A DNA stretch of 64,000 nt from positions 1 to 64,000 of the forward strand of contig JARFPM010000005.1 of NCBI GenBank assembly GCA_030444405.1, given 5' to 3'. The notes under the pieces were generated by a model. That model made no database searches, was not told the origin of the DNA, and saw only the letters and a list, made by a program, of their open reading frames with translations. This DNA comes from Nitrospira sp. (GTDB taxonomy: Bacteria; Nitrospirota; Nitrospiria; Nitrospirales; Nitrospiraceae). Shown here one piece after another: positions 12,816 to 28,332 of the stretch. Position 1 is the stretch's first letter; every line of letters starts with the position of its first letter. The translations under genes and the position numbers were made by a program.

Positions 12816-15800
12816 CTACCCCGGAACGGAGATCGTGCCAGAAGAGGCCGCTCCGTGATTGTTCGTCTCCTCTTCGAGTCTCCTCGGGAAACGTTCCTCT
12901 AGAATCAAGTACATCGTTGGGACGAGAAACAGCGTGAGGAGGGTCGAAACGCTCAACCCTCCGACGACCGCCCTTGCAAGGGGCGCGTTCGTTTCCCCTC
13001 CGGTCCCGAGCCCGATCGCCATGGGAAGCAGCCCGAAGACCGTCGCGAGCGAGGTCATGAGAATCGGGCGCAGTCTGGTTCGTGAGGCGGTCAGGACGGC
13101 CCGATGAAGAGGTTCGCCTCTGCGGCGTAGAACATTGGTGTAATCGACCAGTAAGACCCCGTTTGAGACGACAATTCCAAACATCATGATAATACCCATC
13201 AATGACGTGGTGGACAGCGTCGTGTTTGTTAGGAACAGTATCAAGATGACACCCGGGAAGCCCATCGGCACCGAAAACATGATGATGAATGGATCGATGA
13301 GCGATTTGAATTGGGCGGCCATGACCATGTAAACCAACAGCAGTGCCAAGATGGTCGCAAACTGCAACCCTTGGAAAGTTTCCCGCTGCTGCTGAATCTG
13401 CCCTGCCAGCTTGATGCTAAACCCCGCCGGCAGCTGAAGCTTGGCGAACGCTGACTCGAGATCTTCAGCGATGTCGCCCAACGCGCGATTGGTCGGATTA
13501 GCCGTGATGTGGACCACGCGCTGGAAATACTTCCGATCGACTTTCACTGGTCCTGCGTTCAACTTGAGGGAAGCTACGTTCTTCAGTAAGACGGGCTCAC
13601 CGGATCTTGTGGTGAGCACAATATTCTCCAGATCAGCGAGATCTTTCCGATGCTCCTCGGCCAGCCAGGCGCTGATGAAATACTCGTTGCCGCTCTGAGG
13701 ATCCGTATAAATGATCGGATCGGTTTGGCCGTTGCCGTTCAATGAGAAGAGGACGGCATTAGCCACATCGGCTTCGCTGATGCCCAGCAAAGCCGCCTTT
13801 TCGCGATCGACTGTGACGTTGACCTCCGGGTAGTTTTCTTCGCGGCTCGGTTCGATATCCGCCAGGCCGGGAGTCTGCTCCATGATCTCTTTGACACGGG
13901 CGATGGCGTCTCTCGCCTTTTCGAAGTCATATCCGTAGATTTCCACATCCACGGCCTTTTGCGAGCCGAAACTTGTGACACGTTTGACGAGGCCGCCGGG
14001 ATCGAAATACATCGAGACCCCCGGGAACAGTTTAACGATCTTAGGGCGCACGTCGTTCATGATCTCGACTTGAGTTCTGGTCCGCTTGTCCGGTGAGACC
14101 AAGTACACTTGAATCGAAGATGTATGGGGCCCTGTGTTGGGGTTGAAGAGCGACGCGCGACCTTGCGACAGGATACCCGTGCTGGAGACGATCGTTTCCA
14201 ATTCGGTCGTGGGAATATTGGCTCGGAGTACCCGTTCGACTTCTGAGACCTGCTGTTCGGTCTTTTCAACCCGTTGGCCCACCGGCGCCCGCAGGACGAT
14301 GCGAAACTGACTTTCATCGGAAACCGGCAGGAACTCTGTCCCGATCAGAGGAACCAAAGTGAGCGATCCGACAAAGATCAGCAGCACCATGGCGATAAAG
14401 ATCCGGCGGTGTCCCAGTACCCATTTCAACGACTCTTCGTAACTCCTATCGAGGGACTCATATCGGCGACGGCTCCAATCCATCAGTTTGGTAAACCAGT
14501 CTGGCATTCTCCGCCGAACTTCTTGCTCAGGCTTGAGGAACTTGTAGCAGAGCGCAGGCGTCACCGTGCGGGAAACCAAGAATGAAGTGAAGAGCGCGAT
14601 GGCGATCGTGACCGTCAAGGGAATCAACAACAGGCGCGCGATGCCGACGACAAAAAACATTGGAAGAAAGACGACGACCGTCGTGACTGTCGATGCGAAG
14701 ATCGGCATCGCTACTTCCCGTGCGGCATCGAGAATGCCGTTCCACCGGCTGGGATTGGCGTTGAGGTGGCGCTGGATGTTCTCCAGCTCCACGATTGAGT
14801 CATCCACCAGTCGTCCGATACCCAGCGCGAGCCCGCCGAGCGTGAAGACGTTGAGGGTCTGGCCGGTAAAATAGAGCACGATAAACGTCACGAGTAACGA
14901 GAGGGGGATGGCCACGGAAATGACCACGGTACTCGTGAGGTTGCGCAAGAAGATAAGAATCACGGAAGCGGCCAACAGTGAGCCGTGGAGGGCTTGTTCA
15001 ATAAGATTTCGGATTGATTGGCGGATATAGAGGGATTGATCGAACGAAATGCCGAGTTTCACCCCTTCGGGAATGCCAAACATCTTGGGCAGCGCCGCGC
15101 GCAGAGCGTCCACAACTTCAACCGTATTGGCGATCGGCTGCTTATTCACGCGAAGAAACACGGAGCGGGCGCCATCGGCATGAACGATGTTTGTTTGGAT
15201 GTCGGATGAGTCCGTCACGGTTCCCAGGTCACGCACGCGGACCGGGTTGCCCAGCTGATTCACCTTCACGATGACATCCTGGATCGGCTCCACCGTCCGA
15301 AACTGGTTGTTGGTAAAGACGTTATAGTCCAGGTTGCCGGCTTTGATGTCGCCGGAAGGCAGAATCAAATTGGAGGCTTTGACGGATTTCACAACGTCGA
15401 GAATGGAGAGCCCCCGGGCACTGAGCAGCGCCGGATCAAGGTTGATGTTGATTTGGCGGATCTTGCCGCCTTCGACGGTCGCCGCCGCAACATCGGCGAT
15501 TTGCTCGATCTGCGGAGCAATGGTGTTGTACGCCAGATCGTATAGCGCGCGCTCGTCCAGCTCGTCGCTTGACACCGAAACGATTGAGACGGGGATGTTG
15601 GAGACGTCGAACTTGACGATAAAGGGCTGCAGAATACCCGGTGGAAGGCTGTTCAGGATCTGCGTGATGCGCTGCATCACCTCCATTTGTCCGACGTTGA
15701 TGTCCGCTCCCCAATTGAACCAGATCTGCACGGCTCCGAGGCCTTGCTTGCTGAATGATTCGACATGCTCAACATTGGAGGCGGAACTGACGGCCTTTTC

Positions 15801-16001
15801 GATCGGGTAGACGACGCTCTGTTCGATGTCGAGGGGAGGCGCTCCTTTGTAGATGACGCCGACGAAAGCGACGGGGACTTGGATTTGCGGGAAGAGATCA
15901 ATCGGCAATCGTTGGAGAGATGTCAACCCTAATACCACCATCGCGAGCGAGAGCATCAGAATGCCGATGCGATTGCGCAATGCGAGCAGGGTCAGCCACA
16001 T
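12816..16001 (-). CDS. RND efflux transporter permease (AcrB/HAE1 family)
   Basis: 1061 aa; LPIDLFPQIQVP, LGIGRLVDDSIVELENI, typical RND C-terminal half. Confidence 0.95.
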   Translation of the reverse strand: MWLTLLALRNRIGILMLSLAMVVLGLTSLQRLPIDLFPQIQVPVAFVGVIYKGAPPLDIEQSVVYPIEKAVSSASNVEHVESFSKQGLGAVQIWFNWGADINVGQMEVMQRITQILNSLPPGILQPFIVKFDVSNIPVSIVSVSSDELDERALYDLAYNTIAPQIEQIADVAAATVEGGKIRQININLDPALLSARGLSILDVVKSVKASNLILPSGDIKAGNLDYNVFTNNQFRTVEPIQDVIVKVNQLGNPVRVRDLGTVTDSSDIQTNIVHADGARSVFLRVNKQPIANTVEVVDALRAALPKMFGIPEGVKLGISFDQSLYIRQSIRNLIEQALHGSLLAASVILIFLRNLTSTVVISVAIPLSLLVTFIVLYFTGQTLNVFTLGGLALGIGRLVDDSIVELENIQRHLNANPSRWNGILDAAREVAMPIFASTVTTVVVFLPMFFVVGIARLLLIPLTVTIAIALFTSFLVSRTVTPALCYKFLKPEQEVRRRMPDWFTKLMDWSRRRYESLDRSYEESLKWVLGHRRIFIAMVLLIFVGSLTLVPLIGTEFLPVSDESQFRIVLRAPVGQRVEKTEQQVSEVERVLRANIPTTELETIVSSTGILSQGRASLFNPNTGPHTSSIQVYLVSPDKRTRTQVEIMNDVRPKIVKLFPGVSMYFDPGGLVKRVTSFGSQKAVDVEIYGYDFEKARDAIARVKEIMEQTPGLADIEPSREENYPEVNVTVDREKAALLGISEADVANAVLFSLNGNGQTDPIIYTDPQSGNEYFISAWLAEEHRKDLADLENIVLTTRSGEPVLLKNVASLKLNAGPVKVDRKYFQRVVHITANPTNRALGDIAEDLESAFAKLQLPAGFSIKLAGQIQQQRETFQGLQFATILALLLVYMVMAAQFKSLIDPFIIMFSVPMGFPGVILILFLTNTTLSTTSLMGIIMMFGIVVSNGVLLVDYTNVLRRRGEPLHRAVLTASRTRLRPILMTSLATVFGLLPMAIGLGTGGETNAPLARAVVGGLSVSTLLTLFLVPTMYLILEERFPRRLEEETNNHGAASSGTISVPG

Positions 16002-16110
16002 AGCTGAAGTATCGAGAAATGAGCAGTGAGCGATGAGTGGGGCATCATGTGAACGAATTGATCAAGGCTCAGAGAACGTTCTGTTCGCTCTTCAGTTCAG
16101 CACTCTCATC

Positions 16111-17286
16111 CTAGGACTGAGGAAGTGAGAGGATTTGTACGGGTGTGCCGTCGTGTACCAGATCTTTACCGGAGACGATGACATGCTCATCACCCGTTAA
16201 ACCTTTGATGACTTCTACGCGGTTGGCGCTACGCGCACCGATCTCGACATCGATCCGCCTTGCCTTCCCCTCTTGAACCACGTAGACATACTGGGTCTCT
16301 TCCAGCCGACTGACGGCATCAATGGGAATCTGCAACACTTGGGGATGGGTTCCCACCATCACCTCGACTCGGGCAAACATCCCCCCTTTTAATCGGCGAT
16401 CCCTATTGGGTAAGTCGATTTCCACTGTCATGGTACGTGTCGCGCGATTCAGGGCCTGGACGATACGCGTGACGGTTCCTTCGAACACTTGATCTGGATA
16501 CGCTTCGGCACGGAGCTCTGTCTTTTGGCCTACCTTCACCAGCGAAATGTCTCGCTCGACGACTTCGATCAGCACACGGACCGTATTGATGTCGTGCAGG
16601 CTCATGATGCCCCGTGACATGGTCGAGGTGCTTGCAGTTGCGCTGCTTACATAGGCCCCGGTATCTAAATTTCGTTCTGCGATATAGCCGGGAAATGGGG
16701 CTCGGATAAAAGAATAGGCTAAGTTAGTCTCCGCCTGGGCCAGGGCAACCTCCATTTGGTTGACCTGTGCTTGTAGGGATTCCTGTGCTGCTCTGGCAGC
16801 GTCAAAGTTGACCTGCGCGTTATCCAGATCTTGCTGTGAGACAAATTGGTCTTTGATGAGGGTCTGCATGCGATCGAACGTAAGCTTGGCGTTGCGAACT
16901 ACAGCATCCTGTTGTGAGACCTTCGCCTTGGCGGCTGAAAGGTTGGCTTTTGCCTGATTGACGGCATGTTGATAGTCGGTATGATCGATTTCAACGAGTA
17001 ACTGATTAGCCCTGACAAAATCGCCCTTATCGACATGCAGTTTGGCGATGTATCCATCGACCCTTGAGAAGATATTGACGACTTGATTGGGTGTGATGTC
17101 CGCTGTGTAGGCGAGACGAATATCGAGATTCTGTCGTAGCGGGGACACAATGCCTACCGTAATCAGCCGTGCCTTCTTCGTGTCGGCTTTGGCACCTGTG
17201 CTCAGGCGAAAGACTACAAGAGCCATGATCCCAAAGAAGATGACAACCCCAAAGACTACAAATGGATGTTGGACGAATCGACTCAT
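16111..17286 (-). CDS. RND efflux periplasmic adaptor (membrane fusion protein)
   Basis: Biotinyl-lipoyl-like VDGYIAKLHVDKGDFVRANQLLVEID, coiled coil, IRAPFPGYIAERNLDTGAYVS. Confidence 0.92.
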   Translation of the reverse strand: MSRFVQHPFVVFGVVIFFGIMALVVFRLSTGAKADTKKARLITVGIVSPLRQNLDIRLAYTADITPNQVVNIFSRVDGYIAKLHVDKGDFVRANQLLVEIDHTDYQHAVNQAKANLSAAKAKVSQQDAVVRNAKLTFDRMQTLIKDQFVSQQDLDNAQVNFDAARAAQESLQAQVNQMEVALAQAETNLAYSFIRAPFPGYIAERNLDTGAYVSSATASTSTMSRGIMSLHDINTVRVLIEVVERDISLVKVGQKTELRAEAYPDQVFEGTVTRIVQALNRATRTMTVEIDLPNRDRRLKGGMFARVEVMVGTHPQVLQIPIDAVSRLEETQYVYVVQEGKARRIDVEIGARSANRVEVIKGLTGDEHVIVSGKDLVHDGTPVQILSLPQS

Positions 17287-19245: not shown

Positions 19246-19647
19246 CTACATAAGTCGGAATCGAGTTCGTTGATCGCTCACGGTGTGGTGGGAGATGCTT
19301 TTCCAAATGAAAGATTGCAGCCGCTTTCGATGGTCTTGGCTCAGATCCATGAATCGGACAGAAAACTGACAACCAGACACCCACACAACAAGCGCCGATT
19401 TCAATAAAATTTGGGGTAATCCATCGGGAAGTGCAATGGTAAGGGTCAATAATGTTCCGCGCGTCACCGGGCGGTCGCTGATGACGTGGCAACCAGAAAC
19501 AGATATGTTTTTCGTGAGTCCTTCACCTTGGTGAGGCTGAGTCGGAACTTCACCGACATAACGTACTCGACACGTGATAGCGACACGTTCGGCAAAACGG
19601 TTATCTAAAGGTGCATAGGATTTTCGGCCACTCATCGTAAGTTTCAT
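19246..19647 (-). CDS. PilZ domain protein
   Basis: RFAERVAITCRVRYVG...KNISVSGCHVISD...VWVSGCQFSVRFMDLSQDHRKRLQSFI. Confidence 0.8.
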   Translation of the reverse strand: MKLTMSGRKSYAPLDNRFAERVAITCRVRYVGEVPTQPHQGEGLTKNISVSGCHVISDRPVTRGTLLTLTIALPDGLPQILLKSALVVWVSGCQFSVRFMDLSQDHRKRLQSFIWKSISHHTVSDQRTRFRLM

Positions 19648-19781
19648 TATGATAGCTTCGTTTGGAATATTTTTCTAATCAATTCAGCAATGTAGCTTGG
19701 TCATGAAAAACGACCTGATGCGTCACCTTTAAAGAATATTCCTGGTGGCGAGGGAGACTAGCTACCGTAGGATGAAGGGAA

Positions 19782-21461
19782 TTACTGTCGAATCTTGGCC
19801 CAGGCGGTTTGATACTCTTCGAAGGAATCGACTTCCATCCATCCCTTAAAAATCGGTATGGCCTGGATGCGATAGCCCTGGTCAATCAGTTCTTGCAGCA
19901 TATCGGTGAAAGATGCCTTGGCAAGGCTTGCGGACTCATGGAACGGGGATGAATGATGCTGTTTCTGGGCTGTGTGATAGCACTCGCGAAGAGCCTGGGT
20001 GCCCTTCTCTGAGAACATGGCCATGCCGATGAATTCACCATGCGTCAGTTCGTGCGGAAGTTGCTGGCCAATCTTAACCACCTGGTGCTCACCTTCTGGC
20101 ATCACAAATCGCGACAAATAACTTTTGCCGGGTGGGGCGGCCAGTGAGACAAGATCCGGGTTAAGATGGGTCGGCTGGGCATTCCGTTGTTCCTGATCAA
20201 GCCAGGCCAGATCGACAACTAGAGCAATGTCGGCGGGACACTTAAGCAACTTTTCAAGAATCGAGGTATCAAAGATGATATCGCCGTACAAGACGATGGT
20301 TCTCCCTGTTAACTCATTTTCGGCACAGAAGAGCGAAACGAGCTCGCCGGTTTCCTCGTAACGATCATTGTCGTAGTAGCGGATATTGGGGAGCGAGATC
20401 GCCTCCTTTTTGTACCCGCGAACCAAAGCAATTTCCTTGATGTCGCATTCGTTGAGTGCGCTGATCTGGCGATCGAGGATCGTTTTCCCTTTAATGTCGA
20501 GCAAACACTTCGGCTTATCCTCGATCAACGGCAGGAGCTGTTTCTCGAATCCAGCGGCGGCGATAATCGCGGTAATTCGTTCGCTTCCCACCGGCAGGAA
20601 CTGTTTCTCGTCTTGCTCCATTTGCGGAACACCGACAATGTCATACACTTCTGGTAGCGTGACGATTCTGTCATTTGCTGCTCCGGGGCGCGTGTCCTTC
20701 TTGATGAGATCCAGCGTGTCTGTCATCGCACGAATGGCCGCCCGTACCGGTTGGTTGGCATAGATGATGATCTTTGCCCCGGCTTCTTCCATCTCCATCG
20801 CGGTGGTCTGGTCGAAAATCGTTGGAACCACAACCAGCGGGACGCGCCCGGACCACAATTTGTACACGGCCTTCAGTTCGTCAAACTTTTTCGATTTCGA
20901 ATGGATCAGGATTGCGTCGGCGCCCGCCTCTGCATAGGCTTCAGCCCGCTTCAGCGCTTCTTCCTGACCCCAACCCGCGATGAGGGCCTCGGTTCTGGCG
21001 ATGACCATGAACTCTGGGAAAATCTGAGCCGCTTTCGCCGCTCGAATCTTGCCGCAATGCTCTTCAATGGGAATCAATTCCCGTCGAACGCCCGCGTAAA
21101 AACTGCAGCGCTTTGGATAGACGTTGTCTTCAATGCAAATAGCAGCCACGCCGGCCCGCTCACGGTCGGTGACGGTCCGCATGACATTCAGCGCGTTGCC
21201 ATATCCGGTGTCGCAATCTGCGATCACAGGAATACTTACAGCCTCAACGATATTCCGTTCGACATCGAGCTGCTCACTGGAGGTAATAAAGCTGGCGTCG
21301 GGAATGCATTTCAGGGAAGCCGAGATGGCAAAGCCACTGGCCCAGACACCATCGAAGCCTGCGCGCTCGATCAGGCGCGCACTCAATGCGTCGTGGGCAC
21401 CGACGACCTTCAACGCGCCAGGTTTTTTTAATGCGGTACGAAGTTTCGCAGCGTTTGTCAT
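19782..21461 (-). CDS. pepM: Phosphoenolpyruvate mutase-family domain fused to a nucleotidyltransferase domain; catalytic motif EDNVYPKRCS instead of EDKxxxxxNS
   Basis: WASGF, ADCDTGYGN, VIARTEALIAGWGQEEALKRAEAYAEAGADAILIHSK, DEKQFLP; C-terminal AIIAAAGFEKQLLPLIEDKPKCLLDIKGKTIL. Confidence 0.85.
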   Translation of the reverse strand: MTNAAKLRTALKKPGALKVVGAHDALSARLIERAGFDGVWASGFAISASLKCIPDASFITSSEQLDVERNIVEAVSIPVIADCDTGYGNALNVMRTVTDRERAGVAAICIEDNVYPKRCSFYAGVRRELIPIEEHCGKIRAAKAAQIFPEFMVIARTEALIAGWGQEEALKRAEAYAEAGADAILIHSKSKKFDELKAVYKLWSGRVPLVVVPTIFDQTTAMEMEEAGAKIIIYANQPVRAAIRAMTDTLDLIKKDTRPGAANDRIVTLPEVYDIVGVPQMEQDEKQFLPVGSERITAIIAAAGFEKQLLPLIEDKPKCLLDIKGKTILDRQISALNECDIKEIALVRGYKKEAISLPNIRYYDNDRYEETGELVSLFCAENELTGRTIVLYGDIIFDTSILEKLLKCPADIALVVDLAWLDQEQRNAQPTHLNPDLVSLAAPPGKSYLSRFVMPEGEHQVVKIGQQLPHELTHGEFIGMAMFSEKGTQALRECYHTAQKQHHSSPFHESASLAKASFTDMLQELIDQGYRIQAIPIFKGWMEVDSFEEYQTAWAKIRQ

Positions 21462-21533
21462 AACGGGCCTCACATGATGCGAAAGGGCACAGCCTATTGT
21501 CAACGGAAAGTTTGGAGTATCACCCATCCGCAG

Positions 21534-22061
21534 TCAGAAGACTGTCGCGGAAGTACCATCCAATAGTTTTTCAGGAAGCGTCAGGCTTTCAAAAAATATG
21601 ATGCCGCGATCAGGCCCAGCCTCGAATCGCAACGTCACTTCCGTAAGAAAGCCATGCCAGGCATAAACTTTCACCGGGCCGACTGCGATTTGCCCTGGTG
21701 TTCGGTCGAGCGGACCATACGTGGATTGGAGGTAGGTCAGGATTTTCTCATGAGTCTCTTCCCCCCTGTAGCGGACCGTCACGCGGCCAAACTTCTTCTC
21801 AAACGTCGTAAACCGTATCGAATCCACCTCGGTCGTGCCTAGTAAAGGCGGTCGTCCATTCCGTTCATAAATCTGTAAGCGGCCAGCATCCTCAATTTTT
21901 GCGAAGCGTTCCCCTTCAGACAAGATTGTCCCCCAGGGAATGTCTTCGAATCCGTTCGGATCGTTTACGATAGGAACGCCAAATGCGGAAGGTGATGAGT
22001 CTAAGAGGCAAAGTATGACGATCGCCGCTCGCGTGACCCGCTCAGAGAGAAACGCATTCAT
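21534..22061 (-). CDS. Hypothetical secreted protein, paralogue of the next gene
   Basis: NDPNGFEDIPWGTILSEGERF...RVTVRYRGEETHEKILTYLQSTYGPLDRTPGQIAVG...RGIIFFES. Confidence 0.65.
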   Translation of the reverse strand: MNAFLSERVTRAAIVILCLLDSSPSAFGVPIVNDPNGFEDIPWGTILSEGERFAKIEDAGRLQIYERNGRPPLLGTTEVDSIRFTTFEKKFGRVTVRYRGEETHEKILTYLQSTYGPLDRTPGQIAVGPVKVYAWHGFLTEVTLRFEAGPDRGIIFFESLTLPEKLLDGTSATVF

Positions 22062-22065
22062 CGAA

Positions 22066-22596
22066 CTACTCTGCGGAATCGGTAATGTAGTCATTGAACC
22101 GTGGTGCGAGCGTGCGACTATCGATGAAAATGTAACCGCGCTCTGTACCGGCCTGATATGTCAGGTTGATTTCGGTCTCGGTCCCGCGCCAGTTGTATTG
22201 CTGGGTGAGTCCTCGCGCCATCTGTCCGGGAACGCGCTCCAGCCGACCGAAGCGGCTTTCCAAGAAGCCCAGCACCCGCCGATGAACGTAGTCCCCGTGA
22301 TACCGAATGATGACACGCGCGAATTGGTCGTCCACCGAGACATAGAGGACGCTGGTCATCTCGGTTCCCGCAAATGACGACGGCTCTGTCTTGCGGAGAT
22401 ATTCGACGATATGCGGACTCGCTCGCATCGGTTCCAGGTCGTGATGCGAAGATAAGGAAGTTCCCCAAGGAATATCGTGAAATCCCTTGGGGTCATTGGT
22501 CATGGAAACAGCCCATACTGAACCGGCAGCAATCACGATCGCGATCATCAGGACCAACGACCAAACATGGGATGCTGGTTTGAGGGGATCTATCAT
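22066..22596 (-). CDS. Hypothetical membrane-anchored/secreted protein, tandem paralogue
   Basis: NDPKGFHDIPWGTSLSSHHDL...RVIIRYHGDYVHRRVLGFLESRFGRLERVPGQMARG...RGYIFIDS. Confidence 0.65.
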   Translation of the reverse strand: MIDPLKPASHVWSLVLMIAIVIAAGSVWAVSMTNDPKGFHDIPWGTSLSSHHDLEPMRASPHIVEYLRKTEPSSFAGTEMTSVLYVSVDDQFARVIIRYHGDYVHRRVLGFLESRFGRLERVPGQMARGLTQQYNWRGTETEINLTYQAGTERGYIFIDSRTLAPRFNDYITDSAE

Positions 22597-22754
22597 CTCT
22601 GCCGGCGGATCGGACCACAGCCGTGTTGGCAGTAACGCTAACATGCGAATGAAGTCAACTCAACTGCGGATCTTTCTTGAGAACCTCGCAGGGCGTATCT
22701 TATAATGCGCCGGTTTTGGCGGGCAGGTGTCAATATTCCAGGGGGAAACTCCCA

Positions 22755-23252
22755 GTGATTGAAAGCGACGTCTTCGTGCAAGCCATGCAGGACATGGGGG
22801 TCAATTTTTTCACCGGCGTACCGGATTCGATCCTGGGCGGGATCATCGCGGAACTCATGAATCGCCGGCTCTATACCTCCGCGGTTCGGGAGGATGAAGC
22901 GGTCGGGATGGCTGCGGGCGCGTACATGGCTGGAAAAACACCCGCCGTGCTCATGCAGAATTCAGGACTCGGCACCTCTCTCAATACACTCATTTCTCTA
23001 AATATGATTTATAAACAACCCTGCATACTGATTGTTTCATGGCGAGGTCAAGGTGGGAAGGATGCTCCCGAACATTTGGTAATGGGAGAAGTGATGCCGC
23101 AATTGCTCGATACCGTCAAAATCCCGCATCGTACATTGACCGAAAAAACGGCCATCGAAGATTTCAGGTGGGTAGCTGAGACGTTTATGAAGCAGCGGAT
23201 TCCTGTGGCCTTGTTCATTACTAAGGGCGTGGTCAAGGGGTTGCATCCATGA
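22755..23252 (+). CDS. Phosphonopyruvate (or sulfopyruvate) decarboxylase-like, TPP N-terminal domain subunit
   Basis: FFTGVPDSILGGI, VREDEAVGMAAGAYMAGKTPAVLMQNSGLGTSLNTL, IVSWRGQGGKDAPEHLVMGE; GTG start. Confidence 0.82.
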   Translation: MIESDVFVQAMQDMGVNFFTGVPDSILGGIIAELMNRRLYTSAVREDEAVGMAAGAYMAGKTPAVLMQNSGLGTSLNTLISLNMIYKQPCILIVSWRGQGGKDAPEHLVMGEVMPQLLDTVKIPHRTLTEKTAIEDFRWVAETFMKQRIPVALFITKGVVKGLHP

Positions 23253-23830
23253 GGCCCGAACAAGGTACATTGATCAGCCGAGCGCAGGCCATGGCCGCCT
23301 TGCTGGAGTTGCTGACCGATCAGCCCGTCATTATCTGCAACGGGTTTCCCTCGCGCGAGGCGCACAAGATCGCGGATCGTCCCACCCATTTCTACATGAT
23401 CGGTTCCATGGGGAATGCCCCGGCCATCGCGCTCGGTGTTGCACTCGCAAAGCCGAATAAACAGGTGGTAACCTTCGATGGCGACGGGAATGTGTTAATG
23501 GGAATGGGCACACTCGCCACGGTCGGTGCGTTGAAACCAAAAAACTTCATTCACGTAGTATTCGACAATGAAGTATACGGAACGACCGGGAACCAGCCCA
23601 CGATCTCAAACGTGGTGCCGTTGGAGAAAGTGGCGAAGTCGGCGGGCTACGTGAATGTGGAACGAGTACTTGATCGCGACGATCTCGTCTACGAGTTCAA
23701 GGACATGCTGAAGAAAGCTGGACCCAGCATGTTGCTCATCAAGGTAAACGAATTTGTGGAAGATGCCGGTCGCGTCCTGCACGATCCGCCGGACATCACC
23801 CACCGGTTCATGAAGGCGATCGAGGGATAG
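23249..23830 (+). CDS. Phosphonopyruvate (or sulfopyruvate) decarboxylase-like, TPP C-terminal domain subunit
   Basis: TPP motif GDGNVLMGMGTLATVGALKPKNFIHVVFDNEVYGTTGNQPT; 4-bp overlap with the preceding gene. Confidence 0.85.
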   Translation: MRPEQGTLISRAQAMAALLELLTDQPVIICNGFPSREAHKIADRPTHFYMIGSMGNAPAIALGVALAKPNKQVVTFDGDGNVLMGMGTLATVGALKPKNFIHVVFDNEVYGTTGNQPTISNVVPLEKVAKSAGYVNVERVLDRDDLVYEFKDMLKKAGPSMLLIKVNEFVEDAGRVLHDPPDITHRFMKAIEG

Positions 23831-23985: not shown

Positions 23986-25068
23986 GTGATTCTCCTGAAT
24001 CCTGGGCCGGTGAACGTTTCCGATCGAGTGCGTCAAGCGCTGCTGAAGCCCGATATCTGTCATCGAGAAGATGAATTTTTCGAACTGCTTCACCGCATCC
24101 AAGCCAAACTGCTCAAAGCTTTTGTCCCCGGAGCTGAATCGGAATACGTCGCCGTCGTGATGACTGGATCAGGGACGGCTGCCGTCGAAGCCGCCTTGAT
24201 GTCGTCGCTCCCGCACGGTCGCCGTATGCTCATCCTCAACAATGGTGTCTATGGTGAACGGATGTCCCAAATCGTGGGCCTCCATCGCCTGGGGGTGAAC
24301 GAGTTGAAGTATGAATGGACGGTTCGGCCCGATCCTGAAAAGCTGCTTCTTGCCCTGCGACAGCATCAGGAAGTGCATGCCGTCGGCATGGTGCACCATG
24401 AGACCACCACCGGCCTCCTCAACCCGGTTCGCGAGATCGCCGAGATCGTCGATAATCAGAATCGAGTGTTTGTGCTCGATGCCGTCAGTGCTCTGGCGGG
24501 CGAGACGATCGACATTGCCCGGTCGCACATCTACATGGTGGCGGGGACGGCGGGAAAGTGTATTCAGGGGTTCCCTGGCGTCTCATTCGTGCTGGTGCGA
24601 AAGGGGTTCGTCGAGAGAATGCGCGCGTATCCGAAACGCTCGTGGTATCTCCATCTGACCCATTACATCGACAACGAGGGGCGAGGCACGATTCCATTCA
24701 CGCCCGCGGTGCAGGTCTACTATGCCTTCGACGAAGCACTCAACGAGCTACTCGAAGAAGGCGTGACCAATCGCATCCAACGGTACAAGAAGATGGCGAC
24801 CCTGATCCGTGAACGAATGGCCAAGCTGGGTGTGAAGGCGCTTCTCCCGGTGGACCGGCAATCGAATACCATCACGGCCTATCACCTGCCGGAGGGTGTT
24901 TCCTACCACGCGTTGCATGACCGCCTGAAGCAGCAGGGCTATGTCATTTATGCCGGTCAAGGCAACTTGGAAAACAAGATTTTCCGCGTGGCCAATATGG
25001 GGGCATTGTCCGAGGCGCAGTTTGGCGGGTTTCTCGACGCCTTCGAACAAGTGTGTAAATCGGCATGA
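23986..25068 (+). CDS. PLP aminotransferase class V, 2-aminoethylphosphonate aminotransferase-like
   Basis: ILLNPGPVNVSDRVRQAL, MTGSGTAAVEAAL, VLDAVSALAGE, GTAGKCIQGFPGVSFVLVRK. Confidence 0.82.
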   Translation: MILLNPGPVNVSDRVRQALLKPDICHREDEFFELLHRIQAKLLKAFVPGAESEYVAVVMTGSGTAAVEAALMSSLPHGRRMLILNNGVYGERMSQIVGLHRLGVNELKYEWTVRPDPEKLLLALRQHQEVHAVGMVHHETTTGLLNPVREIAEIVDNQNRVFVLDAVSALAGETIDIARSHIYMVAGTAGKCIQGFPGVSFVLVRKGFVERMRAYPKRSWYLHLTHYIDNEGRGTIPFTPAVQVYYAFDEALNELLEEGVTNRIQRYKKMATLIRERMAKLGVKALLPVDRQSNTITAYHLPEGVSYHALHDRLKQQGYVIYAGQGNLENKIFRVANMGALSEAQFGGFLDAFEQVCKSA

Positions 25069-25784
25069 AGGCGGTCATCCTTGCTGCGGGAGTCGGAAAA
25101 CGTCTGTGGGAAGTGACCCAACATCGCCCGAAATGTCTCATCGAGATCGGCGGCCGGTCGCTCTTGCGTCGCTACCTCGAGTCGCTGGTTTCCGTCGGGA
25201 TTCGCCGGGCGGAGATCGTTGTCGGGTACAAGCAGGAAATGATTCGTGCGGCAGTCGAGCAGGATTCCTGCGGCGTCAAGGTCGCGTTTCTGGTCAACGA
25301 ACAGTTTCACAGAGGCAGTATTTCCTCGCTGTGGGTCGCACGAACCGCGCTCGACGACGATACCATCGTGATGGACGCCGATGTACTTTTTCATCCGGAG
25401 ATCCTACGACGTTTGGTGTTGTCGCCCTATGCGAATGCGCTGTTGATGGATGAGACGGTGAAGCAGACCGGAGAGGAATGCATGGTGGTTGTGGCGGGGG
25501 GTCGAGTCGTTGCGCTGACAAAGAACATGCCGGAACAGTACGACTACGCCGGTGAAGGGGTTGGATTTCTTCGGGTTCGGCATGCCGACACGCCTCACGT
25601 CGTCTCGTCGCTTCGTGGCTACATCGACAGAGGCTCGTGGGATATGGAGTACGAGGACGCGCTGCGGCAGTATTTTCAGGACGTGCGGGTCGGTTATGAA
25701 CGGATCGGAGGGCTGCCCTGGACCGAGATCGATTTCATTCAAGACATAAGAAAAGCTGAATTGGAAGTTTTGCCAAGATTATGA
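25065..25784 (+). CDS. Sugar/alcohol-phosphate nucleotidyltransferase (LicC/PntC-like)
   Basis: MKAVILAAGVGKRLWEVTQHRPKCLIEIGGRSLL; C-terminal PWTEIDFIQDIRKAELEVLP; overlaps upstream stop. Confidence 0.82.
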   Translation: MKAVILAAGVGKRLWEVTQHRPKCLIEIGGRSLLRRYLESLVSVGIRRAEIVVGYKQEMIRAAVEQDSCGVKVAFLVNEQFHRGSISSLWVARTALDDDTIVMDADVLFHPEILRRLVLSPYANALLMDETVKQTGEECMVVVAGGRVVALTKNMPEQYDYAGEGVGFLRVRHADTPHVVSSLRGYIDRGSWDMEYEDALRQYFQDVRVGYERIGGLPWTEIDFIQDIRKAELEVLPRL

Positions 25785-25856: not shown

Positions 25857-27299
25857 ATGAGCATGAGTAAGAGCATCCTGCAAAGGAGAGCCGAAATCCA
25901 AGGACTGGCGACGGCGATTCTGCTGCCGTCCGTCGGGGTATTCGGCGGTTCGATCGGGCAGCAGGTCGGCGACGTGGGGCCCCTGACGAGCGTCGTGGGG
26001 ATCGGGCTCTTTCAACGCACCGTGCTCACCTTGCAACGGGCGGGGATTCGTCAATTAATCGTCCTTTCTGGTTCTGAGGAAGAACAGCTGAAACAGGCGC
26101 TCGGCAAAGGGCCGCGCGTCACGATTCCCGTCCGATGGATGCCGATCCGTGAATTTCCTCTCGACGATCCTCGGACATGGGAAGCCTTGGCAGCCGAAGT
26201 GCATGGCTTTGCGTTGGTCACGAGCGTCAATAGCGTGTTCTCTCGAGGGTTGATTGAACGGTTGCGGCGTGATGTGCAGGACGGTCAGGTCATTGTGGTC
26301 TCTCAAGCCCCACAAGGGCAGGTCGATCAACTCATGGTGCAGAGCATGCGATCGAAAGTCCAGTCCGGTCGCCCGGCGATCTTCACCCCTCCTCGTTTCG
26401 ACGATCCGGTCTTGCGTGTCGCTGAGCTGGTGGTCGTGCCAGCAAGCCTGATGAGTACCGCGAATCAAGCGGCGAGTGAGAAGGGGAGCCCTCCGATCCG
26501 CCAATGGCTTGAGCAGGCCGCGACGGATGGTCGAGTGCGTGTCGTCTCGGCTGAAGAGAAGCAGGGTAACTGGTATCAACCTGTCCGAACCGTGTTTGAC
26601 GTCCAAACAGCCGAAAAAAAGTTGTTCAATTCGCTCAAGGGGGAATTCGAAGGGTTCGTCGATCGCTATTTCAATCGCAAGGTCTCTCGCTGGTTCACCC
26701 GCCTGTTTCTCGCCATGGGGCTGTCGCCCAATTCCATCACGGTCCTTGCCGGATTAATTGGTCTGGTTGCAGGGGCCGGGTTTGGGATGGGCACGTACAG
26801 CGCCGGTATCGTAGCCGCTCTCTTGTTTCAATTAGCGGCTGTCATTGATTGCTGCGACGGCGAAGTCGCGCGGTTGACCTTTACCGAGTCCCCCTTTGGT
26901 GCCTGGCTCGATATTGTCTTGGACAACATCGTGCATATGGCGATTTTTGTGGGCATCGCTGTAGGACTCTATACGACCGAAATGGGACAAGCGGACGACT
27001 GGGTTCCTCTCGTGCTAGGCGTCGCCGCGGTGTTTGGCAACGGCCTCTCTTTCTTACTTGTCGAAAAGGCGCAAAAGATTAGAACGGTGAGCGGCTGGAG
27101 AACCCCTGCCCACGCAGCCTGGGCGGACGTTATGTTGAAAAATGTCGCCAGTAGGGATTTTTCAGCAGCGTTGTTGGGCTTTGCCCTATTCGACCAGCTG
27201 TATTGGTTTCTCCTCTTTGCGGCAGCTGGCTCCTTGCTGTTTGCCGGTGCCATGGTATGGGTCATCCGCCCAGCGGCAGTCTCGTCTCCCCGGCCATAA
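25857..27299 (+). CDS. CDP-alcohol phosphatidyltransferase with N-terminal degenerate nucleotidyltransferase-like region
   Basis: DCCDGEVARLTFTESPFGAWLDIVLD matches DxxDGxxARxxxxxxxxGxxxDxxxD; N-terminus LATAILLPSVGVFGG...QRTVLTLQRAGIRQLIVLSG. Confidence 0.82.
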   Translation: MSMSKSILQRRAEIQGLATAILLPSVGVFGGSIGQQVGDVGPLTSVVGIGLFQRTVLTLQRAGIRQLIVLSGSEEEQLKQALGKGPRVTIPVRWMPIREFPLDDPRTWEALAAEVHGFALVTSVNSVFSRGLIERLRRDVQDGQVIVVSQAPQGQVDQLMVQSMRSKVQSGRPAIFTPPRFDDPVLRVAELVVVPASLMSTANQAASEKGSPPIRQWLEQAATDGRVRVVSAEEKQGNWYQPVRTVFDVQTAEKKLFNSLKGEFEGFVDRYFNRKVSRWFTRLFLAMGLSPNSITVLAGLIGLVAGAGFGMGTYSAGIVAALLFQLAAVIDCCDGEVARLTFTESPFGAWLDIVLDNIVHMAIFVGIAVGLYTTEMGQADDWVPLVLGVAAVFGNGLSFLLVEKAQKIRTVSGWRTPAHAAWADVMLKNVASRDFSAALLGFALFDQLYWFLLFAAAGSLLFAGAMVWVIRPAAVSSPRP

Positions 27300-27324
27300 A
27301 TGCCACGTTCGCCATCCGACTAAC

Positions 27325-28332
27325 GTGTTACGCTATATTCTACTCGCCATTGGCCTCATCGTTCTGAGCCTTCTCGTCTGGCATATCGGCCCCGCCAATA
27401 TCTACGAAGCCGCTGCACGACTGGGCCCTACAGCCTTGCTCGTCATCCTCATTCCATCTGTCGTCATGTATTCCGTTGAGGCCTATGGGTGGAAAGTGGT
27501 GTTGGGGCGAGTTGCGCAAGGGGTTCCGTTTTGGCGATTGTTGACGATCCGGACTGCCGGTGAAGTCGTAAATATGACCACCCCAACGGCCTATCTGGGG
27601 GGCGAACCTCTGAAGGCGTATTTGCTCAAGAAATATAACATTCCGATGACGGAAGGAGCTGCGTCCGTCGTGATCGCCAAGACGACCATGACGATCGCCG
27701 AGGTATGTTTTATCCTCATGGGGATCGCGCTTGGCTTTTGGATCCTTGGTGCCGGCAGCTCCGCGGGACAGACGATCACGGCAGCTCTGCTGAGTGTGGG
27801 ACTGCTGGTCTGTTCAATCGCCGGGTTCGTCTTTATCCAGCACCGTGGGCTCTTTGCTTCGACCTTGTCGATGGTAAAAAAGTTGGGGTTGAGGATCCAG
27901 TCATTGGAGGCACAGGAAGAGCACCTGCGCTCGATCGACCGGACGATTCTGAATTTCTACAGGCACCATCAGAGGGCATTTCTCGCGTCGATCGGAGTGT
28001 ACTTTTTCGGCTGGCTGGCTGAATCGCTGGAAGTCTTTGGGATCATCTATTTTCTCGGTGGTTCGGTGAATTTCCTGACCGCCATCTCTATAGGGGCCCT
28101 GGCCGTGTTTATCAAAGGCGGGACGTTTTTCATTCCTGGCAGCTTGGGAGCCCAAGACGCCGGAAACATGCTTTTGTTGCAAACCTTTGGTTACAGCGAT
28201 GTGACGGGTCTTACCTTTGCCTTGCTGCGGCGGTTCCGTGAGCTTGTGTGGATTGGCATCGGGTTGTTGTGTTTGGCAATGGTTGGAAAAGGCAGGATAC
28301 CTCGGGATCAAGAAGTAGAAAGTCCTTCCTGA
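27325..28332 (+). CDS. Flippase-like / lysylphosphatidylglycerol synthase TM-region (UPF0104) membrane protein
   Basis: Multi-TM; YGWKVVLGRVAQGVPFWRLLTIRTAGEVVNMTTPTAYLGGEPLKAYLLKK; PGSLGAQDAGNMLLLQTFGY; GTG start. Confidence 0.78.
   Translation: MLRYILLAIGLIVLSLLVWHIGPANIYEAAARLGPTALLVILIPSVVMYSVEAYGWKVVLGRVAQGVPFWRLLTIRTAGEVVNMTTPTAYLGGEPLKAYLLKKYNIPMTEGAASVVIAKTTMTIAEVCFILMGIALGFWILGAGSSAGQTITAALLSVGLLVCSIAGFVFIQHRGLFASTLSMVKKLGLRIQSLEAQEEHLRSIDRTILNFYRHHQRAFLASIGVYFFGWLAESLEVFGIIYFLGGSVNFLTAISIGALAVFIKGGTFFIPGSLGAQDAGNMLLLQTFGYSDVTGLTFALLRRFRELVWIGIGLLCLAMVGKGRIPRDQEVESPS

Follow-up and report, generated by a model that had tools for sequence, protein, structure and literature searches.

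The window analysed here, a stretch of 64,000 nucleotides from a Nitrospira sp. contig, encodes on its minus strand a fusion protein whose PEP mutase domain almost certainly makes the C-P bond of phosphonates, judging from its sequence and its genomic surroundings, despite a cysteine at the position where the textbook enzymes carry an asparagine. The protein is most likely an uncharacterised PEP mutase variant feeding a CMP-AEP/phosphonolipid pathway and is very probably this Nitrospira's only PEP mutase and a functional one, supplying phosphonopyruvate to the PpdAB-AepT-NTP-CDPOH pathway encoded next to it. No description of this Cys-type variant or of phosphonate biosynthesis in Nitrospira was found in the literature searched, which covered few subscription papers.

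The features of the locus are the following.
19782..21527, minus strand: 581-aa fusion of a Cys-type PEP mutase with an NTP_transf_3 (PntC/LicC-like) domain (PF13714, 1e-57; PF12804, 5.8e-10)
21102..21131, minus strand: variant lid motif EDNVYPKRCS, residues 133-142 (sequence; alignment to 1m1b numbering)
21534..22094, minus strand: hypothetical 186-residue protein encoded between pepM and ppdA (no Pfam match)
22066..22644, minus strand: hypothetical 192-residue protein, apparently a paralogue of the 21534..22094 product (no Pfam match; common NDP-GF-DIPWGT motif)
22677..23252, plus strand: ppdA, for the alpha (N-terminal) portion of a split phosphonopyruvate decarboxylase (131 bits with TIGR03297; 115 bits with sulfopyruvate decarboxylase alpha)
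23249..23830, plus strand: ppdB, beta (C-terminal) part of the split phosphonopyruvate decarboxylase (TIGR03846, 183 bits; TIGR03297, 171 bits)
23986..25068, plus strand: aepT, 2-aminoethylphosphonate aminotransferase (TIGR03301 PhnW-AepZ, 351 bits against a cut-off of 361)
25065..25784, plus strand: second, stand-alone nucleotidyltransferase, a PntC-like candidate with intact LAAGVGKRL (PF00483/PF12804; alignment)
25857..27299, plus strand: CDP-alcohol phosphotransferase (PF01066, 1.1e-11, residues 290-413; NF041135 CDP-inositol enzyme, 97 bits)
27142..28332, plus strand: HpnL/LPG_synthase_TM flippase-like membrane protein (PF03706, 7.7e-35; TIGR03476, 164 bits)

Domain organisation and lid motif

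The PepM domain spans residues ~24-312 of the fusion and the NTP domain residues ~318-581. Minus-strand positions 21102-21131 read GAA GAC AAC GTC TAT CCA AAG CGC TGC AGT, that is EDNVYPKRCS, so that the first-pass annotation was right in reporting the loss of both the canonical Lys and the canonical Asn; in the alignment to 1m1b, Asn135 occupies the site of Lys116 and Cys141 that of Asn122. Owing to these two substitutions, the Cys-type proteins fall outside both the EDKx5NS motif and the TIGR02320 cut-off. The window protein scored about 271-274 bits with TIGR02320 (PEP mutase), below the cut-off of 319.55, and 260 bits with TIGR02321 (phosphonopyruvate hydrolase), and the curated models therefore give it no name. 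The TIGR02320 cut-off was missed by all the Cys-type genomes tested and passed by both canonical ones.

Three surveys (PMC6697681, PMC8931226, PMC12723261) have relied on EDKx5NS to decide what counts as a phosphonate producer, and the first of them retained only sequences bearing the motif and set aside 22 fused sequences without it as presumed non-Ppm proteins. Judged by this motif and the NCBI cut-off, N. moscoviensis and the other Cys-type Nitrospira, Rokubacteria and further groups would not be counted as phosphonate makers; a motif filter overlooks this gene and its relatives in several phyla because they carry Cys where the textbook versions have Asn.

A PepM domain and a MobA-like NTP transferase in one chain, with a second nucleotidyltransferase in the cluster, are also features of the Ppm-PntC (PF12804) fusions (PMC6697681), and the window locus is alike in both respects. 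In the alignment, the fused NTP domain shows the signature AAAGFEKQLLP and the stand-alone transferase the canonical LAAGVGKRL; a nucleotide-binding signature degraded in comparison with the stand-alone transferase was observed in the fused NTP domains (19782-20580, minus strand, in the window) of Cys-type and canonical proteins alike. Neither the NTP fusion nor the neighbouring phosphonate operon had appeared in the first-pass annotation.

Active-site residues

The active-site residues of 28 non-redundant Cys-type and 15 lyase-side sequences were compared in Mytilus numbering. Trp44, Asp85, Asp87, Glu114, Lys120, Ser123, Arg159 and His190 were kept in all 28 Cys-type sequences, Asp58 in 27 (with a gap in the other one) and Ser46 in 26, the remaining two having Gly, which also occurs in some canonical mutases. 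The Mg2+- and phosphoryl-holding residues of the window protein are D77, D104, D106, E133, R178 and H209, corresponding to D58, D85, D87, E114, R159 and H190. The protein shares with PepM/Ppm (Mytilus 1PYM, Streptomyces 5UNC) the fold, the Mg2+ site and the residues Trp44, Lys120, Ser123, Arg159 and His190, together with the Ppd and aminotransferase gene context, whereas the diagnostic differences are Asn for Lys at position 116 and Cys for Asn at position 122. Position 122 is Cys in 28/28 Cys-type sequences, position 116 is Asn in 26/28, rarely Gln or Ser and never Lys, and position 121 is usually Arg rather than Thr.

In PEP mutases, Arg159 and His190 stabilise the phosphorus intermediate while Asn122 and Ser123 contribute only hypothetically, and the review reporting this is itself doubtful about the N122T substitution to which most authors ascribe the difference between phosphonopyruvate hydrolase (PPH) and mutase (PMC7916636). 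A Cys in place of Asn122 is thus chemically plausible in a mutase. As contact with the phosphonyl group is ascribed to Asn122 and the switch from mutase to hydrolase is often put down to N122T, N122C might plausibly alter the outcome of the reaction. The clade supplies a series of naturally occurring mutants of the residue believed to decide between the mutase, hydrolase and lyase outcomes, and the role of lid position 122 is therefore directly testable.

As a phosphonopyruvate hydrolase, the protein would consume phosphonopyruvate instead of producing it. PPH (2DUA/2HJP) has the same fold, a lid likewise altered at position 122 (Asn to Thr) and a good alignment with the window protein (260 bits for TIGR02321 against 271 for TIGR02320). 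However, PPH retains Lys116, carries Thr122 and Arg188 (PPH numbering) where the window protein has Cys and Lys, and is nested within the canonical clade, apart from the Cys-type. Moreover, with a hydrolase the decarboxylase-aminotransferase operon would have no source of substrate, and sister genomes use a mutase in its stead, making this function very unlikely.

Phylogeny and predicted structure

When the ten lid columns were masked, the Cys-type sequences, including the window protein, grouped in the tree with mutases and PPH, divided from the lyases by a branch with 100/100 support, and the placement among lyases envisaged by the first-pass annotation was not recovered. The canonical EDK sequences and PPH formed a sub-clade (100/99) that excludes the Cys-type, whose sequences make up a grade when the tree is unconstrained; a single Cys-type clade including the archaeon UBA141 was not rejected by the AU test (p-AU 0.55). 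A second AU test, of the Cys-type and lyases as one side (p 0.085), left UBA141 out and carries no weight.

The first-pass annotation had likened PKRC to the methylisocitrate lyase side of the superfamily, and Cys122 preceded by K-R or K-K indeed occurs in 15/15 lyase-side sequences, as in PrpB and its relatives, a feature which would fit a C-C lyase akin to the methylisocitrate/isocitrate lyases in which Cys141 serves as the catalytic acid. All 15, however, also have Gln116, Gly123, Glu190 and no Trp at position 44, whereas Ser123, His190 and Trp44 occur in every Cys-type sequence and Asn116 in nearly all of them; against the lyase signature K[KR]CG with Gln116 and Glu190, the window protein shows KRCS, N116 and H190. 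Residues, the separate lyase clade, the phosphonate operon and the use of a canonical mutase as replacement led us to reject a lyase identity as most improbable. The altered or lyase-like chemistry proposed earlier is likewise unsupported, since the operon and the canonical replacement indicate the same reaction; the evidence agrees best with the other option put forward at that time, a mutase working with a different lid.

As the lyases carry Cys122 as well, the tree is most simply read with Cys as the ancestral state and EDKx5NS as a derived one, the rooting being uncertain owing to the long lyase branches. We tentatively consider that the Cys-lid PEP mutases may be the older C-P bond-forming type, having received Cys122 from lyase-like ancestors, with EDKx5NS arising later in one sub-clade. 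If true, the family would preserve the transition from lyase to mutase and mutase chemistry would not require Asn at position 122.

Structure prediction from the single sequence gave a pLDDT of 34, while the AlphaFold model obtained from an alignment reached a pLDDT of 89. The closest fold to this model was 5UNC (1.1 A), and each of its top 15 PDB matches was a PEP mutase or PPH, with all lyases ranking lower; as the alignment contained canonical mutases, this match is supporting and no independent test of function.

Neighbouring genes and proposed pathway

The ppdA-ppdB-aepT-NTP-CDPOH-flippase genes diverge from pepM, and the two small ORFs without a family lie in between. The DNA of the 21534..22094 ORF stays in place even in genomes lacking pepM, and these overlapping, paralogue-like ORFs (21534-22644, minus strand), kept beside ppdA after the loss of pepM, are possibly an unrecognised part of the locus. 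The N-terminal half of the CDP-alcohol phosphotransferase matched no Pfam family, and the real start of the flippase-like ORF is probably downstream of position 27142. The flippase-like gene occurs in three tandem copies in some Nitrospira operons (L124, 1193-4474; L189, 13041-16321). On the far side of the locus (12816-17286, minus strand), the translations revealed an RND-type efflux pump and its membrane-fusion partner. The genome of the window, which is 99.6% complete, contains no further PEP mutase homologue; its one other PF13714 match is, from its sequence, presumably ketopantoate hydroxymethyltransferase (PanB).

In the proposed pathway, the Cys-type PepM would convert PEP into phosphonopyruvate at the customary Mg2+ site, the migrating phosphoryl group being held by the Arg/His pair and the lid loop offering Cys141 for Asn122 and Asn135 for Lys116. 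Phosphonopyruvate would then be decarboxylated by PpdAB and transaminated to 2-aminoethylphosphonate, which may be activated with CMP by the fused nucleotidyltransferase domain, the stand-alone enzyme or both. Finally, the CDP-alcohol phosphotransferase would move it to an alcohol acceptor, the product probably being a phosphonolipid or a related surface molecule.

The PpdAB scores fit a sulfopyruvate decarboxylase (alpha/beta) too, but a sulfonate pathway (sulfopyruvate to sulfoacetaldehyde to taurine) with the PepM-like protein making or handling sulfopyruvate is scarcely credible, as the aminotransferase is PhnW/AepZ-like, the fused and stand-alone nucleotidyltransferases and the CDP-alcohol transferase need a phosphonate or phosphate group, and the same operon is elsewhere paired with a canonical EDKx5NS mutase.

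Replacement by a canonical mutase

A sample of 198 Nitrospirota genomes was searched with PepM and PpdB. The Cys-type fusion was present in 12 genomes and a canonical-type fusion, about 40% identical to it in the PepM domain, in 44; both occurred together in 0 genomes against about 9 expected, a comparison whose Fisher and hypergeometric values ignore the relatedness of the genomes, so that the counts are not independent and the evolutionary replicates are at least the genus of the window, genus g7 and family f2 (where both types stand side by side), not 56. The canonical motif, EDK[LQ]FPKTNS, was seen in L091 and in 46 fetched loci, which include repeats from a single genome, and for a few canonical-type genomes outside the fetched loci the type was assigned by homology.

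The ppdA-ppdB-aepT-NTP-CDPOH operon is common to genomes with either fusion. PepM of either type and the ppdB operon occurred together in 55 of the 198 genomes, PepM alone in 1, ppdB alone in 2 and neither in 140; PpdB identity was 65-97% throughout and 42% in the deep-branching genome G157. The gene order was kept in nearly all the canonical-type genomes inspected, G133 having its NTP gene beside the canonical pepM and not in the operon. In six genomes (G009, G108, G145, G189, G191 and G133), the only Ppd found was the split one of the operon and the only PepM was canonical and encoded elsewhere; in G009 the canonical pepM is distant from the operon and its scanned neighbours include no phosphonate gene. 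The two genomes with ppdB and no PEP mutase, both Nitrospiraceae (G060, L185; G143, L186), have kept ppdA-ppdB-aepT with no NTP, CDPOH or flippase genes nearby, and their operon is either decaying or serving a different substrate, for example sulfopyruvate.

Disrupted remains of the Cys-type gene were detected upstream of ppdA in four canonical-type genomes of the same genus as the window (G043, G036, G070 and G151). In G043 the DNA is 77% identical over window positions 20998-22700 and 76% over 19603-19877, the intervening 1.1 kb is missing and in-frame stops are present. In G027 the sequences matching positions 19603-19796 and 21536-22700 are directly joined, which indicates a clean deletion of the Cys-type gene with the flanks remaining, and G102 and G147 also lack the gene with both flanks still alignable. 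The genomic record thus indicates that the Cys-type gene degenerates in the presence of a canonical mutase, with the operon remaining intact, and this is our strongest argument, drawn from genome comparison, that both enzymes would supply the same metabolite.

Conservation and distribution of the Cys-type

In a scan covering 84,980 genomes, 39 loci were recovered. The motif EDNV[YF]PKRCS recurred unchanged in over 30 distinct Nitrospirota genome records, that is in every Nitrospirota sequence covering the motif in that scan, among them the complete genome of the cultured N. moscoviensis (L041), and the miscalled codons contemplated by the first-pass annotation are thereby excluded. The gene is under strong purifying selection (pairwise dN/dS about 0.03-0.07), and the top tblastn matches against plasmids were all less than 40% identical.

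Remoter relatives carry the lids EDQVFPKRCS (HR10), EDNVFPKTCS (Rokubacteria) and EDNIFPKRCS (a deltaproteobacterial MAG), the last of which was also read in G157, a Nitrospirota genome from a later search. Follow-up searches at the phylum level returned nine Rokubacteria with CSL-type lids (eight besides the genome of L034) and three further genomes in the phylum of HR10. A Ppd match was present in every Cys-type genome tested, although weak in G198, and was located away from pepM in some of them (G137, G157, G199 and G200). Phosphonate genes of a similar kind lie beside the Cys-type PepM in HR10 and in Rokubacteria, the latter with a collinear pepM-ppd-NTP-CDPOH-flippase arrangement.

An inositol-3-phosphate synthase gene (L037, 14817-15959, plus strand) adjoins a Rokubacteria pepM cluster; given this neighbour and the resemblance of the CDPOH protein to CDP-inositol enzymes, inositol may take part in the product. 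The archaeon UBA141 (L116 / L035) has the intermediate lid EDNVFPKRNS, with Asn122 and without Lys116, and its PepM gene is adjoined by ppdAB, an iron alcohol dehydrogenase and a nucleotidyltransferase, a gene content that suggests a putative hydroxyethylphosphonate branch.
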